Below, one piece after another: positions 37,305 through 42,878 of a stretch of DNA of 64,000 nucleotides; the stretch's first letter is position 1; each line of letters begins with the position of its first letter. The stretch comes from Armatimonadota bacterium (GTDB taxonomy: Bacteria; Armatimonadota; Hebobacteria; CAIYQO01), in assembly GCA_029553475.1 (NCBI GenBank), contig JAKPKV010000126.1, positions 62,001-126,000 of the forward strand, in the 5' to 3' direction. Below the pieces are notes generated by a model that saw only the letters and a list, made by a program, of their open reading frames with translations, had not been told where the DNA came from and ran no database searches. The position numbers and the translations under genes are program-made.

Positions 37305-37694
37305 ATGGCTGATAAGATCACCACGCATAAGGAACTGGACGTTTATGCGCGAGCATTCGCGATCTCGATGCGTATCTTTCATCTCTCCAGGCAGTTCCCC
37401 AGGGAAGAGATGTATGCACTCACCGATCAGCTTCGGCGCTCTTCACGTTCGGTGTGCGCCAATCTTGCTGAAGCCTGGCGCAAACGTCGGTATGAAGCCG
37501 CATTTATCGCGAAGCTCAGCGATGTCGAGGCGGAAGCTGCCGAAACGCAGGTCTGGTTGGAGTTCTGCGGTGCGTGTGAGTATCTTCCGCGGGAGATCTG
37601 CGATGAGTTATCACAAGCCTACGATGGCGTGCTCCGCACCATAGTCGGTATGATCTCGCACCCGGATTCCTGGGTGCTTCGTGCAAAACAATAG
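37305..37694 (+). CDS. Four-helix-bundle protein (23S rRNA intervening-sequence type)
   Basis: A 129-residue helical protein of the S23/IVS family (TIGR02436 type): THKELDVYARAFAIS, FPREEMYALTDQLRRSSRSVCANLAEAW, and KLSDVEAEAAETQVWLEF. Family members were first found encoded in intervening sequences of 23S rRNA and are widely scattered as small stand-alone cassettes; they probably form pentamers, and their function is unclear. Its codon use is less GC-extreme than that of its neighbours. It interrupts the transketolase operon and is flanked by inverted GGTGAAG/CTTCACC arrays, so I read it as a mobile or formerly mobile cassette. Confidence 0.9.
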   Translation: MADKITTHKELDVYARAFAISMRIFHLSRQFPREEMYALTDQLRRSSRSVCANLAEAWRKRRYEAAFIAKLSDVEAEAAETQVWLEFCGACEYLPREICDELSQAYDGVLRTIVGMISHPDSWVLRAKQ

Positions 37695-37828: not shown

Positions 37829-38770
37829 ATGCAACTGGGTAAAGCAACGCGGGAAGCCTACGGGGAAGCGCTGGCGGCGCTGGGCGCGGAGATGCCGGAG
37901 CTGGTGGTGTTGGACGCCGACCTGTCCAAGTCCACCATGAGCAAGAAGTTCGCGGACAAGTTCCCCGATCGCTTCTTCAACATGGGCATCGCCGAGGCGA
38001 ACATGGTGGGGGTGGCCGCGGGGCTGGCGGCGGGCGGGAAAATTCCCTTCGCCTCCTCCTTCGCCTCCTTCCTCATCTGCAAGGGGTTCGATCAACTCCG
38101 CATGGCGGTGGCCTACCAGGGCGAGAACGCGAAGTTCTGCGGCACCCACGCCGGCATCAGCATCGGCGAAGACGGCGTCTCGCAGCAGGGGATCGAAGAC
38201 GTGGCGCTGGCCTGCACGCTGAACGGTTTTGTGGTGCTGGTGCCCGCCGATGAGCATGAGATGCGCGCCGCCGTGCGCGCCGCCGCCCATCATCACGGCC
38301 CGGTCTACCTCCGCGCCGGCCGCCCGAAAGCGCCCGTCGTCTATCCGGGAGGCAAAGACGTCTTCACCATCGGCAAGGCGGACACCGTGCGCGACGGCAA
38401 GGACGTGACGATCATCGCCTGCGGGCTGATGACCGGCGCCGCGCTGGAAGCGGCCGAGGCGCTGGCCGCGCAGGGCATCAGCGCCCGCGTGCTGAACATG
38501 GCCAGCGTGAAGCCGCTGGACGATGACGCCGTGCGCAACGCCGCGCGGCAGACCGGCGCGCTGGTGGTAGCGGAAGAGCACATCGCCCACGGCGGGCTGG
38601 GCAGCCTGGTCGCGATGACCGTCGCCGCCGCCGTGCCGGTGCCCGTCGAGTTCGTCAACATGGGCAACCGCTACGCCGAATCCGGCACCCCGGAGGAGCT
38701 GCTGGCGAAATACGGCCTGACGGCGGCGGATATCGCCGCGGCGGCCAAGCGGGCGATGGCGCGGAAGTAA
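37829..38770 (+). CDS. Transketolase, C-terminal subunit
   Basis: A 313-residue partner of the subunit at 36391. It has the pyrimidine-binding domain (LDADLSKSTMSKKFADKFPDRF, then NMGIAEANMVGVAAGLA with the catalytic Glu of GIAE, FASFLICKGFDQLR) and the transketolase C-terminal domain (ARVLNMASVKPLDDDAV). AGGGG precedes the ATG at 37829; longer frames run through the repeat and lack a ribosome site. The downstream gene ileS has its own promoter, so the operon probably ends here. Confidence 0.92.
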   Translation: MQLGKATREAYGEALAALGAEMPELVVLDADLSKSTMSKKFADKFPDRFFNMGIAEANMVGVAAGLAAGGKIPFASSFASFLICKGFDQLRMAVAYQGENAKFCGTHAGISIGEDGVSQQGIEDVALACTLNGFVVLVPADEHEMRAAVRAAAHHHGPVYLRAGRPKAPVVYPGGKDVFTIGKADTVRDGKDVTIIACGLMTGAALEAAEALAAQGISARVLNMASVKPLDDDAVRNAARQTGALVVAEEHIAHGGLGSLVAMTVAAAVPVPVEFVNMGNRYAESGTPEELLAKYGLTAADIAAAAKRAMARK

Positions 38771-38803: not shown

Positions 38804-38833
38804 TTGACAGGCGTTCAGCGCGCCTCGTATACT
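38804..38833 (+). promoter_or_regulatory. Consensus sigma-70 promoter of the ileS leader
   Basis: TTGACA at 38804-38809, an 18-base spacer, and TATACT at 38828-38833. The predicted start is near 38840. It drives a leader RNA of about 150 bases before ileS. Confidence 0.85.
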
Positions 38834-38852
38834 GCTGCTGGAGAACCATTTT

Positions 38853-38906
38853 ATGACGCGCGCGCAGCGCCAGCCGATAATTATTGGCATCACCTGGGGG
38901 CCATGA
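38853..38906 (+). CDS. Isoleucine-rich leader peptide of ileS (17 residues)
   Basis: ATG at 38853 to TGA at 38904-38906 encodes MTRAQRQPIIIGITWGP. Four of residues 9-13 are Ile, in codons ATA, ATT, ATT and ATC; ATA is unusual in this GC-rich genome. GGAG lies 9 bases upstream, at the predicted 5' end of the RNA. The peptide ends exactly where the antiterminator arm begins (38907). It therefore looks like a regulatory leader whose translation measures charged Ile-tRNA, as leader peptides of amino-acid biosynthetic operons do in enterobacteria. It is too short to have a function as a protein. Confidence 0.8.
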   Translation: MTRAQRQPIIIGITWGP

Positions 38907-38964
38907 GCATCCGGGACGCGCGCGCGTGACCTGTACCCCTCCCGGATGCCGGGAGGGGTTTTCT
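38907..38964 (+). terminator. ileS transcription attenuator (terminator with competing antiterminator)
   Basis: Terminator: CCCCTCCCGG (38936-38945), loop ATG, CCGGGAGGGG (38949-38958), then TTTTCTGT. Antiterminator: GCATCCGGGA (38907-38916) is perfectly complementary to TCCCGGATGC (38940-38949), which uses the same bases as the terminator stem. A third pairing, ACGCGCGCGC (38856-38865) with GCGCGCGCGT (38918-38927), would enclose the antiterminator arm when the leader is untranslated. Confidence 0.85.
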
Positions 38965-38990
38965 GTGTCGCCGTAATAAGGAGTACCGTC

Positions 38991-41900
38991 GTGTTTCGTG
39001 CCGTTGATCCGCGGGTGTCGTTTCCGAAGCTGGAAGAGTCGTTGATCGCCTGGTGGCGGGAGAGCGACGTACTGCGGCGCGCCATTCCCGGGCGCGAGGG
39101 CGGGCCGGACTTCGTCTTTTTCGAGGGGCCGCCGACGGCGAACGGGAAGCCGGGGGTGCACCACGTCCTCTCGCGGGCGTTCAAGGACATCATCCTCCGC
39201 TACAAGCGCATGCGCGGCTACCGCATCATCGGCGCGCGCGGCGGCTGGGACACCCAGGGCCTGCCGGTGGAGCTGGAGATCGAAAAAGAGCTGGGGCTCT
39301 CCGGCAAGCGCGACATCGAGCGCTACGGCATCGCGCCGTTCAATCAACAGTGCCGCGACAGCGTCTTCCGCTACGTCAAGGATTGGGAGCGGATGACGGA
39401 CCGCATCGCCTACTGGGTGGACCTCGACGACGCGTACGTCACCTATACCAACGACTACATCGAGTCGGGCTGGTGGATTCTGCGGCAATTGTGGGACCAG
39501 GGGCTGCTGTTTCGCGACTACAAAGTGACCATGCACTGCCCGCGCTGTGTGACCACGCTGGCCGACCACGAGGTGGCGCAGGGCTACGAGGACGATACGG
39601 ACGACCCGTCGGTGTGGCCGAAGTTCCGGGTGCAGGACGTGGACGGCGCGCTGCCCGGCGTGCTGAACGGTCTGCCCGGTCCCGCCTATTTCCTCGCCTG
39701 GACCACCACCCCATGGACGCTGGCGGCCAATACCGCGGTGGCGGTGAAGCCGGACGGCGACTACGTGGCCGCGCGCGTCAACGACGAGACCTACATCCTC
39801 GCGGAGTCGCTGGTGGAGGCGAACCTGGGCGCGGAGGGCGTGGAAATCCTGCGCCGCTTCGCCGGCGCCGAGCTGGCGGGCATCGCCTACGAGCCGCTGT
39901 ATCGCGGCATCCCCGGCGCGGGGGACGCCGTGGAGTGGGATGCGGCCTGGCACTGCATCGCCGATGAATTCGTCTCGCTGGAAGACGGCACCGGCGTGGT
40001 GCATATCGCCCCCGCCTACGGCGACTTGGAGATCGGCCGCCGCCACGGCCTGCCCACCCTTTTCTCGGTAGACTTGAACGGCCTGGTGCTGCCGGGGCTG
40101 CCCTGTGCCGGCACGTTCTTCAAGGAGGCGGACCCATCCATCATCCGCGACCTGCAGGCGCGCAACCTGCTGCTGCGCAGCGGGCGGGTGCGGCACACCT
40201 ACCCCTTCTGCTGGCGCTGCAAGACGCCGCTGCTCTTCTACGCGAAGTCAAGCTGGTATATCCGCACCACCGCGCGCAAGGACGGGCTGGTGGCCGGCAA
40301 CCGGCAGATTGCCTGGGTGCCCGAACATATCCAGACCGGGCGCTTCGGCAACTGGCTGGAAAACAACGTGGACTGGGCGATCAGCCGCGAGCGCTACTGG
40401 GGCACGCCGCTGCCCATCTGGGAGTGCGCCTGCGGGCACCAGCACTGCATCGGCAGCGTGGCGGAGCTGAGCGAGAAGGCGGGGCGCGACCTGCGCGACC
40501 TCGACCTGCACCGGCCCCACGTGGACGAGGTGACTTTTCCCTGCGAAAAATGCGGGGGCGAGATGCGCCGCCTGCCCGACGTGCTGGACGCCTGGTTCGA
40601 CAGCGGCGCGATGCCGGTGGCGCAGTGGCACTACCCCTTCGAGCGCAAAGCGTGGACGGAGGAGAACCGCGCCCACTACGCCGACTACATCTCGGAGGCG
40701 GTGGACCAGACGCGCGGGTGGTTCTACAGCCTGCACGCGCTGGCCACGCTGCTCTTCGACCGCCCGGCCTTCCAGCACGTCATCTGCCTGGGCCACATCC
40801 TGGACGAGAAGGGCGCCAAGATGTCCAAGTCCAAGGGGAACGTGGTGGACCCGTGGGACGTGCTGGACGAGCACGGCGCCGACGCGCTGCGCTGGTACAT
40901 GTATACCTGCACCACCCCCGGCAATCCCCGCCGCTTCTCCAGCCACCTGGTGGGCGAGAGCGTGCGAAAATTCCTGCTGACGCTGTGGAATACCTACAGC
41001 TTTTTCACGACGTATGCGGCGCTGGATGGCTGGACCCCATCCCCCGGCCCCCTCCCCCAAGGGGAGAGGGGGGGTGAGTTGGCGCTGATTGATCGCTGGG
41101 CGCTGTCGCGGCTGCAGGCGCTGGTGCGCACGGTGACGGATCACCTGGAGCGCTACGAGGTGACGGAGGCGGGGCGGGCCATCGAGGGGTTCGTGGACCT
41201 GCTCTCCAACTGGTATCTGCGCCGCAATCGCCGCCGCTTCTGGAAGAGCGAGGGGGACGCCGACAAGCGCGCCGCCTATTCCACGCTGCACACCTGCCTG
41301 GTGACGGTGGCGAAGCTGCTGGCGCCCTTCGCGCCCTTCGTCAGCGAGGAAATCTACCGCAACCTGGCCGCCTCGACCGACCCGGGCCTGCCGGAGAGCG
41401 TGCACCTCGCCGACTGGCCGGCGGTGGATGAGCGCCTCATCGAGCCGCAGCTCGATCGCGACATGGCGGTGCTGCTGCAGGTGGTGGAGCTGGGACGCTC
41501 GGCGCGCGCGGAAAGCGGCCTGAAGGTGCGCCAGCCGCTCGCGGAGATGCTGGTACACCTGCCCGGACCGGCGGAGAAAGACGCCCTCTCGCGCTTCCTG
41601 GACGAGCTGCGCGAGGAGCTGAACGTGAAGGCCGTGCGTCCCGATACCATCGGGAGCTCCGGCGGGCTGGTGCAGTATCGCCTGAAGCCGAACCTGCCGG
41701 TGGTGGGGCGGAAATATGGGAAATTGGTGCCGGCGCTGCGCGCCGCGCTGGAAAACCTGCCGGGGGCGGACGCCGCCGCCATCGCGGAGCGGGCGAAGGC
41801 CGGCGAGACGTTCACGCTGACCGTGGCCGACCAGACGCTGGAGATGACCGGCGCGGAGATCCTCGTCGAGTCCTTTTCACCGGAAGGCTTCGCGATGGCG

Positions 41901-42206
41901 GAAGCGGGCGGCTACGTGGTGGCGCTGAATACCGCGCTGACGCCGGCGCTCATCAGCGAGGGCCTGGCGCGCGACCTGGTGCGGGCCGTGCAGGACGCCC
42001 GCAAAGACGCTGGCCTGCGGATCAGCGACCACATCGCGCTGTTTTTGCGGATGCCGGACGCCCTCGCCGCGCAGCTCCAGCCCTTCCTCGACTACGTGCA
42101 GGCGGAGACGCTGGCGGACGCGGTGACCTTCGCCGACGGCGGCACCTACACGACGACGGCGGAGCTTGGCGGCGCGGAGGTTGTCGTCGGCATCACGAAG
42201 GCGTAG
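38991..42206 (+). CDS. ileS: Isoleucyl-tRNA synthetase (IleS2-like, GxHH variant)
   Basis: A 1071-residue class I synthetase that charges tRNA-Ile. It starts at GTG 38991 with AAGGAG 9 bases upstream. EGPPTANGKPGVHHVLSRAF (about residues 45-64) holds the HIGH-equivalent, here GVHH rather than HxGH. The editing domain follows (WTTTPWTLAANTAVAV), then KMSKSKGN near 610 and Zn-type Cys pairs (CPRC, CWRC, CACGHQHC, CEKC). The N-terminal signature resembles Thermus-type IleRS2. Residues about 682-697 (TPSPGPLPQGERGGEL) are encoded by a copy of an intergenic repeat lying in the linker before the anticodon-binding domain. Expression is probably controlled by the upstream leader-peptide attenuator. 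Confidence 0.95.
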   Translation: MFRAVDPRVSFPKLEESLIAWWRESDVLRRAIPGREGGPDFVFFEGPPTANGKPGVHHVLSRAFKDIILRYKRMRGYRIIGARGGWDTQGLPVELEIEKELGLSGKRDIERYGIAPFNQQCRDSVFRYVKDWERMTDRIAYWVDLDDAYVTYTNDYIESGWWILRQLWDQGLLFRDYKVTMHCPRCVTTLADHEVAQGYEDDTDDPSVWPKFRVQDVDGALPGVLNGLPGPAYFLAWTTTPWTLAANTAVAVKPDGDYVAARVNDETYILAESLVEANLGAEGVEILRRFAGAELAGIAYEPLYRGIPGAGDAVEWDAAWHCIADEFVSLEDGTGVVHIAPAYGDLEIGRRHGLPTLFSVDLNGLVLPGLPCAGTFFKEADPSIIRDLQARNLLLRSGRVRHTYPFCWRCKTPLLFYAKSSWYIRTTARKDGLVAGNRQIAWVPEHIQTGRFGNWLENNVDWAISRERYWGTPLPIWECACGHQHCIGSVAELSEKAGRDLRDLDLHRPHVDEVTFPCEKCGGEMRRLPDVLDAWFDSGAMPVAQWHYPFERKAWTEENRAHYADYISEAVDQTRGWFYSLHALATLLFDRPAFQHVICLGHILDEKGAKMSKSKGNVVDPWDVLDEHGADALRWYMYTCTTPGNPRRFSSHLVGESVRKFLLTLWNTYSFFTTYAALDGWTPSPGPLPQGERGGELALIDRWALSRLQALVRTVTDHLERYEVTEAGRAIEGFVDLLSNWYLRRNRRRFWKSEGDADKRAAYSTLHTCLVTVAKLLAPFAPFVSEEIYRNLAASTDPGLPESVHLADWPAVDERLIEPQLDRDMAVLLQVVELGRSARAESGLKVRQPLAEMLVHLPGPAEKDALSRFLDELREELNVKAVRPDTIGSSGGLVQYRLKPNLPVVGRKYGKLVPALRAALENLPGADAAAIAERAKAGETFTLTVADQTLEMTGAEILVESFSPEGFAMAEAGGYVVALNTALTPALISEGLARDLVRAVQDARKDAGLRISDHIALFLRMPDALAAQLQPFLDYVQAETLADAVTFADGGTYTTTAELGGAEVVVGITKA
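41034..41085 (+). repeat. Intergenic-type hairpin repeat embedded in ileS
   Basis: CCGGCCCCCTCCCCCAAGGGG followed by AGAGGGGGGGTGAGTTGG matches the repeat before the gene at 50119 (CCGGCCCCCTCCCC...GGGGAGGGGG and GTGAGTTG at 49990-50028). It keeps the ileS frame open and adds about 16 residues. Confidence 0.7.
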
Positions 42207-42208
42207 CG

Positions 42209-42440
42209 ATGAAAGGCCCCAAGCCTCTTCGGGTTTGATTGCGTCCCGAAGGGGCCAAAACCGTCAGCCACGGGTGGCGCGCCAGCGGACCCCGCGGGCA
42301 GCATCCGGCCGCGACTCATCCCTATGTCCCGAAGGGACCGAAGCCGTTAGCCACGGGTGGAGCGATAGCGGAACCCGTGGTACCCGGCCCCGAAAAACAC
42401 TCAAGCCCCGAAGGGGCGACAGCAGCTACAACCAGATATA
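42209..42440. repeat. REP-like palindromes, left flank of the transposase
   Basis: Tandem palindromic blocks: CCCGAAGGGRCC (twice), AGCCACGGGTGG (twice), GGAACCCGTGGTACCCGG and GCCCCGAAGGGGCGACAGCAG. The last about 90 bases recur in inverted order on the other side of the transposase gene at 42885-42970. Confidence 0.8.
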
Positions 42441-42878
42441 CCGCGGATCATACGGAATCTGATGATGATGGAGAAAATCTAAAAACTCCTCCTGGAATGT
42501 TACCGTCCGATGATGCTCCTCCTGATGCTCGATATACCGTTTCATGGAATCTAATCCGGTCACGCTGATCGAAAATGCCCCATATCCCTCCTGCCAGGCG
42601 AAGTCCCGAAGTGCCGGGAACGTTTTATGAATCCATTTTGACGAATCGGCCTTTAGATCACGGATCGCTGAGGCGAGCGCCATAGTTTTACTTATCGAAC
42701 CCAAGGCATGAATATGATTGGCCGCGCCACCGACTTTGATCGAGATGCCGCCCATCCCATGAATAATTCCGCCAAGATATTCGTGGATACGCGGAGCGAT
42801 TTCGGGATGAAGAAGGAGGCGGCGGTCTTTTGTGCTGAAGACGATGTGGTAGAACAACGCGGTAAATGAGCCGGACAT
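42426..42878 (-). CDS. IS200/REP-associated (Y1, HUH) transposase
   Basis: A 150-residue single-strand transposase of the Y1 family. It opens MSGSFTALFYHIVFSTKDRR, has the HUH-type metal motif NHIHAL (His-x-His) at about residue 52, and a candidate catalytic Tyr in MKRYIEHQEEHH near 114. TFQEEFLDFLHHHQIPYDPRYIWL is a typical C-terminus. It is intact. Unlike classical IS200, it lies between inverted REP-like palindromes, as RAYT genes do. It may mobilise or maintain those repeats. It is convergent to ileS. Confidence 0.92.
   Translation of the reverse strand: MSGSFTALFYHIVFSTKDRRLLLHPEIAPRIHEYLGGIIHGMGGISIKVGGAANHIHALGSISKTMALASAIRDLKADSSKWIHKTFPALRDFAWQEGYGAFSISVTGLDSMKRYIEHQEEHHRTVTFQEEFLDFLHHHQIPYDPRYIWL

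Follow-up and report, generated by a model that had tools for sequence, protein, structure and literature searches.

The segment 38804–38963 of the window (the whole stretch of 64,000 nucleotides of Armatimonadota DNA analysed here) is very probably a ribosome-mediated transcription attenuator of the leader-peptide type that controls ileS2, a gene for a type 2 isoleucyl-tRNA synthetase (IleRS), and we put the probability of this reading at roughly 0.87. Within about 160 bp it holds a promoter, a short open reading frame (ORF) with a run of Ile codons and an intrinsic terminator, it is conserved in a second species, and in folding models it forms alternative pairings that depend on the position of a ribosome. 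The first-pass annotation had proposed such an attenuator on ileS, and the proposal is supported both by folding, which gave the three states required, and by the retention of the device in a congener. The mechanism is classical; ileS is apparently a new target gene for it, with an instructive history of switch replacement.

Anatomy of the leader region and its counterpart in a congener

The promoter, the 17-codon ORF with its Ile codons and the terminator with its T run were all present as first annotated (Table 1). The number of promoter matches expected in shuffles was 0.0, and the same TTGACA-18-TATACT arrangement was present 5′ of the leader in the sole other genome of the genus examined (G001; the window's own genome is G000). 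Four of the 17 codons of the ORF are for Ile, namely ATA ATT ATT (38877–38885) and ATC (38889–38891), and its stop codon is at 38904. The Ile codons of four neighbouring genes were 71 ATC, 8 ATT and 0 ATA (n = 79), whereas the leader uses ATA; the GC content of the window is 68%. The terminator is placed between the leader ORF and the GTG of ileS2 at 38991, and the terminator scan gave it a stem of 11 pairs (38935–38959) followed by TTTT. The leader RNA would be only about 120 nt long. One detail counts against the attenuator: the GGAG that would serve the leader ORF sits at the predicted 5′ end of the transcript.

Table 1. Features of the ileS2 leader region, in window positions
Feature	Position	Strand	Basis or remark
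Sigma-70 type promoter TTGACA-18-TATACT	38804–38833	+	11/12 matches; TTGACA 38804–38809, TATACT 38828–38833
Predicted transcription start	about 38837–38841	+	predicted from promoter
Shine-Dalgarno-like GGAG for leader ORF	38840–38843	+	sequence; GGAG at matching site in G001
Leader peptide ORF, 17 codons, MTRAQRQPIIIGITWGP-stop	38853–38906	+	sequence; G001 counterpart
Segment A, second lock when untranslated	38856–38865	+	pairs with 38918–38927 in folding; helix with wobble pairs in G001
Region 1 ACCTGGGGGC, codons Thr-Trp-Gly, protector 1:2	38892–38901	+	folding; identical in G001
Region 2 GCATCCGGGA, common to protector 1:2 and antiterminator 2:3	38907–38916	+	starts directly after stop codon
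Segment B, partner of segment A	38918–38927	+	folding
Intrinsic terminator, regions 3:4, with T run	38935–38963	+	scan and folding, −23.1 kcal/mol
Region 3 TCCCGGATGC, pairs with region 2; terminator 5′ side plus loop	38940–38949	+	sequence and folding
ileS2, isoleucyl-tRNA synthetase type 2, 1071 aa, GTG start	38991–42206	+	TIGR00392, 887 bits (cut-off 621.4)

Chance occurrence was evaluated in 20,000 dinucleotide shuffles of 38834–38990, of which 16 contained a terminator, 1 a terminator together with an antiterminator of at least 9 bp, 7 an Ile-rich mini-ORF and 0 the full combination.

A search for IIIGITWGP across 121 genomes from the phylum found this motif only in G000 and G001, in both cases before ileS2. 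The G001 leader reads MPCALSQTIIIGITWGP-stop. In the first half of the leader all differences between the two genomes change amino acids; in the second half only synonymous differences occur (ATT/ATC, ATC/ATT and TGA/TAA) and IIIGITWGP-stop is kept. Regions 1, 2 and 3 and the terminator are identical. Covariation between the two genomes was minimal because the device could be compared in only two sequences. The first-pass annotation had named the conservation of Ile codons and stems among relatives as the test of its reading, and both were retained in this sole same-genus genome.

The sequence 5′ of the promoter differs in G001, without the transketolase coding of the window, and a repeat lies there between the terminator and ileS. 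These data bear on an alternative explanation, in which the terminator merely ends transcription of the upstream transketolase while the mini-ORF and the alternative pairings are incidental. The transketolase subunit gene of the window does end at 38770, which leaves 34 nt to the promoter; however, a near-consensus promoter stands between this gene and the terminator, the shuffles never gave the full combination, and the promoter-leader-terminator block stays with ileS2 in spite of the different upstream sequence, indicating that the block belongs to ileS. We consider this explanation most improbable.

Alternative pairings and the proposed attenuation

Region 2 is the exact reverse complement of region 3, which confirms the antiterminator originally proposed, and by folding the antiterminator 2:3 had an energy of −20.0 kcal/mol in G000 and −17.6 kcal/mol in G001. 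Region 2 is shared with the protector hairpin 1:2 (38893–38898 and 38900–38901 paired with 38907–38908 and 38910–38915, −9.6 kcal/mol by folding), whose loop contains the stop codon and which hides region 2. The first-pass annotation had ascribed the blocking of the antiterminator in an untranslated leader to the pairing of segments A and B; this pairing also formed in the untranslated fold, where it acts as a second lock, but the main protector is a pairing that had not been listed, 38892–38901 with 38907–38915.

Partition-function folding of the RNA with region 3 just complete gave a probability of 2:3 of 0.00 with no ribosome (1:2 = 0.84), 0.75–0.98 when a ribosome occupied any of the Ile codons and again 0.00 when it stood at the stop codon, a pattern that was the same in both genomes and for ribosome footprints of 10–16 nt, the footprint and the folding parameters being approximations. 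The protector and antiterminator pairings were mutually exclusive in these models and were selected by ribosome position. When transcription was modelled with the ribosome at an Ile codon, 2:3 formed about 5–12 nt before 3:4 took over. In the full-length RNA the terminator was always the most stable fold, so that antitermination must be kinetic; a kinetic choice of fold is usual for attenuators. One result counts against the attenuator: with pairing allowed for the RNA upstream of the stalled ribosome, A:B prevented 2:3 when the stall was at the second Ile codon, although stalls at the other three Ile codons (first, third and fourth) still left 2:3 unblocked.

The device would operate as follows. 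The ribosome would follow RNA polymerase through the leader ORF and, with ample Ile-tRNA(Ile), would arrive at the stop codon and cover regions 1 and 2, by which the antiterminator would be prevented and the terminator 3:4 would end transcription ahead of ileS2. Under a shortage of charged Ile-tRNA, the ribosome would wait at the Ile codons, the rare ATA first, covering region 1 and leaving region 2 free; the free region 2 would pair with region 3 before region 4 exists, and transcription would enter ileS2. In an untranslated leader, 1:2 and A:B would lock region 2, leading to termination. From this arrangement we infer leader translation, stalling at the Ile codons, the efficiency of termination and a rise of read-through on Ile starvation. 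In the enterobacterial pheST (pheM) and ilv attenuators, regions 1–4 likewise let ribosome position select antiterminator or terminator, and the ilv leaders carry Ile runs as here, but target gene, sequence and lineage differ. No Ile/Val/Leu leader was found before valS, leuS or ilvB of the window's genus, which counts against the attenuator reading.

The leader could also be read as a nascent-peptide arrest or ligand-sensing device, acting for example via TWGP-stop, and not as a sensor of Ile-tRNA charging. A terminal Pro before a stop codon can slow release, and IIIGITWGP-stop is the same in both genomes, the non-Ile residues included. However, the conservation of the Thr-Trp-Gly codons is explained at the RNA level, since they double as region 1 of the hairpin 1:2. 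Ile is indicated by the codon run, by the rare ATA and by what the gene encodes, and a second leader found in class-mates (described below) has an Ile run without TWGP. Peptide arrest or ligand sensing is, in our estimation, very improbable.

T-boxes, the origin of ileS2 and a second Ile leader

Isoleucyl-tRNA synthetase genes are known T-box targets. Since the cut-off of the T-box model RF00230 is 93 bits, gathering scores report no T-box even where T-boxes exist, and T-boxes were detected by E-value searches. There was no match at the window region even with E up to 5 and none in locus L002, and genome-wide searches of family f1, to which the window belongs (G000, G001 and G002), gave none at E ≤ 0.01. 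At the same threshold, 1–4 T-boxes were found in each of the other class genomes (11/11), including one 5′ of ileS2 in G006 (E = 2e-15). In a neighbouring Chloroflexota group, 7 of the 9 tested members had a T-box (Rfam, E = 1e-12 to 1e-22) and an eighth had one by motif. In most of the gene's closest known relatives, switching on ileS2 when charged Ile-tRNA is short would be the task of a T-box. Given how many relatives carry a T-box 5′ of ileS2, one might imagine that the window too has a T-box that escaped recognition, or a different leader that binds tRNA, but the lack of any T-box match at the window, in L002 and in the family's three genomes, and a leader of such short length, make this practically negligible. 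The proposed attenuator shares with ileS T-box leaders the same gene and the same physiological input, uncharged tRNA(Ile); T-box leaders bind the tRNA directly, whereas the window's leader, without a T-box, would rely on a translated ORF.

In G002, which belongs to the same family but another genus, ileS2 had neither the leader device nor a T-box, and this counts against the attenuator. A generic scan for Ile leaders before ileS2 at 80 genome-contig loci, and likewise before IleRS1 genes, gave nothing convincing.

The ileS2 product carries the motifs GVHH, replacing HXGH, and KMSKS. GXHH in place of HXGH in IleRS2 gives mupirocin hyper-resistance (PMC10485003); by its motif, ileS2 would be of the non-canonical GXHH class, the mupirocin-hyper-resistant type, the resistance being predicted only from this motif. 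In a tree of 107 sequences, ileS2 of the window's family fell inside a clade of Chloroflexota (SH-aLRT 99), distant from the ileS2 of its class-mates. This position is most simply read as horizontal acquisition, and ileS2 was apparently acquired in this way. At about codon 700, ileS2 contains an in-frame insert, PSPGPLPQGERGG, that resembles a palindromic intergenic repeat copied into the gene and translated; the repeat between terminator and ileS in G001, CCCCTCTCCC...GGGAGAGGGG, resembles this insert.

Other leaders with Ile runs were found before ileS2 in G003 and G010 (family f2) and G004 (family f3), beginning MNRRAILIASIIIIIDPAVSRERCW..., MNRMAILIASIIIIDPAVSRERCW... and MSQSVFPITSIIIIITPAVSRGRCW..., respectively, with runs of IIII or IIIII (loci L115, L114 and L020 for G003, G010 and G004). 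The ileS2 proteins of these three genomes form their own clade (support 100). In this second leader, known from three sequences, CCAGCATC 5′ of the Ile run pairs with GATGCTGG (1:2 hairpin), a GGCGGTG segment that follows the run can pair with the terminator's 5′ arm (folding at intermediate lengths), and the terminator is GCCCACCGCC...GGCGGTGGGC-TTTT. Across 291 genomes of the phylum its motif had no further occurrence, and the three genomes retain T-boxes elsewhere. Because sequence, peptide and pairing differ from those of the window and the genes are distant, we read the second leader as an independent origin; Ile-leader control of ileS2 probably arose at least twice.

A fuller history, to which we give an even chance, is that ileS2 passed from a clade of Chloroflexota with T-boxes into a lineage lacking them, where it gained a new Ile attenuator, and that class-mates evolved the second Ile leader. 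If this is true, ribosome-sensing and tRNA-sensing switches repeatedly took each other's place at a single gene in one bacterial class, and the replacement accompanied loss of a catalytic motif from the resident IleRS1. Two unrelated Ile leaders and T-box-bearing relatives in and around one class would make a natural experiment on switch replacement after gene transfer. An apparent split of IleRS2 in G006 into parts 1.16 Mb apart (G006:C1:3665000-3667600, L202, and 4829600-4834000, L201) was rejected as an assembly artefact, with unreadable runs and duplicated edges. The IleRS2 pieces of G004 are located at contig ends.

The paralogous synthetase and related systems

Both congeners also encode an IleRS1-like paralogue of about 941 aa (L130, G000:C94:31793-34135; L200, G001:C4). 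KMSKS is missing from this protein in both (ARAEDGPDARDPGPDPQ in G000) and its HXGH is HLGR or HLGQ; IleRS1 of G002 keeps HLGH and KQSKS. Purifying selection acts on this gene (dN/dS 0.23, 935 codons), indicating that some role is retained. Judging from its motifs, the IleRS1-like protein of the congeners probably has no tRNA charging activity, and since it is without KMSKS, ileS2 probably encodes the working IleRS of the window's genus. A division of labour with IleRS1 as housekeeping enzyme and ileS2 as inducible backup is unlikely for this genus, KMSKS being missing in both congeners. With ileS2 as the working IleRS, the attenuator is likely a demand-driven supply control, like that of pheST. 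The same response would be expected with a synthetase inhibitor, and resistance could possibly be the main purpose.

The first-pass annotation knew of no such ileS attenuator in this type of bacterium, and we found no leader-peptide attenuator of ileS in the open-access literature, older subscription papers being a possible source of one. The nearest parallel, as cited in PMC4787780 (Vecchione and Sello 2010), is the auxiliary indolmycin-resistant TrpRS of Streptomyces coelicolor, which is under ribosome-mediated attenuation. On that account, both systems place the gene of an antibiotic-resistant-type aminoacyl-tRNA synthetase under ribosome-mediated transcription attenuation, but here the codons are Ile instead of Trp, the enzyme is IleRS2 and the phylum is different; moreover, because the sister synthetase has lost KMSKS, ileS2 is probably no mere auxiliary. 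Candidate classical attenuators have also been predicted 5′ of Streptomyces trpS and leuS, in a study where the T-boxes of ileS were translational and ileS had no leader peptides (PMC1262725). The trpS and leuS candidates likewise have a short leader ORF rich in cognate codons, with antiterminator and terminator before the synthetase gene, but the amino acid here is Ile. In bacilli, histidine leader peptides occur 5′ of hisS paralogues (PMC2965389), which is similar in that one synthetase paralogue has a leader peptide and related genes have T-boxes, and different in that those leaders concern His and Firmicutes, whereas here the amino acid is Ile, the gene apparently came from a T-box clade and one class holds two unrelated Ile leaders.

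A resistant-type IleRS is seemingly under ribosome-stalling control here, and the lineage is not among the groups for which we found descriptions of such attenuators. The parallel with the indolmycin-resistant TrpRS of Streptomyces, as far as the citing paper describes it, suggests that the design recurs: when charged tRNA is lost, by starvation or by a synthetase inhibitor, a resistant-type synthetase would be turned on.

Two further ORFs of the window may be mentioned. The two halves of a split transketolase are separated by a small ORF (37305–37694), whose 129-aa product has the look of a four-helix-bundle protein of the 23S intervening-sequence type. On the minus strand, the ORF at 42426–42878 resembles an IS200-like or REP-associated transposase and has short repeats on its flanks, with PEGTEAVSHGW-like translations.
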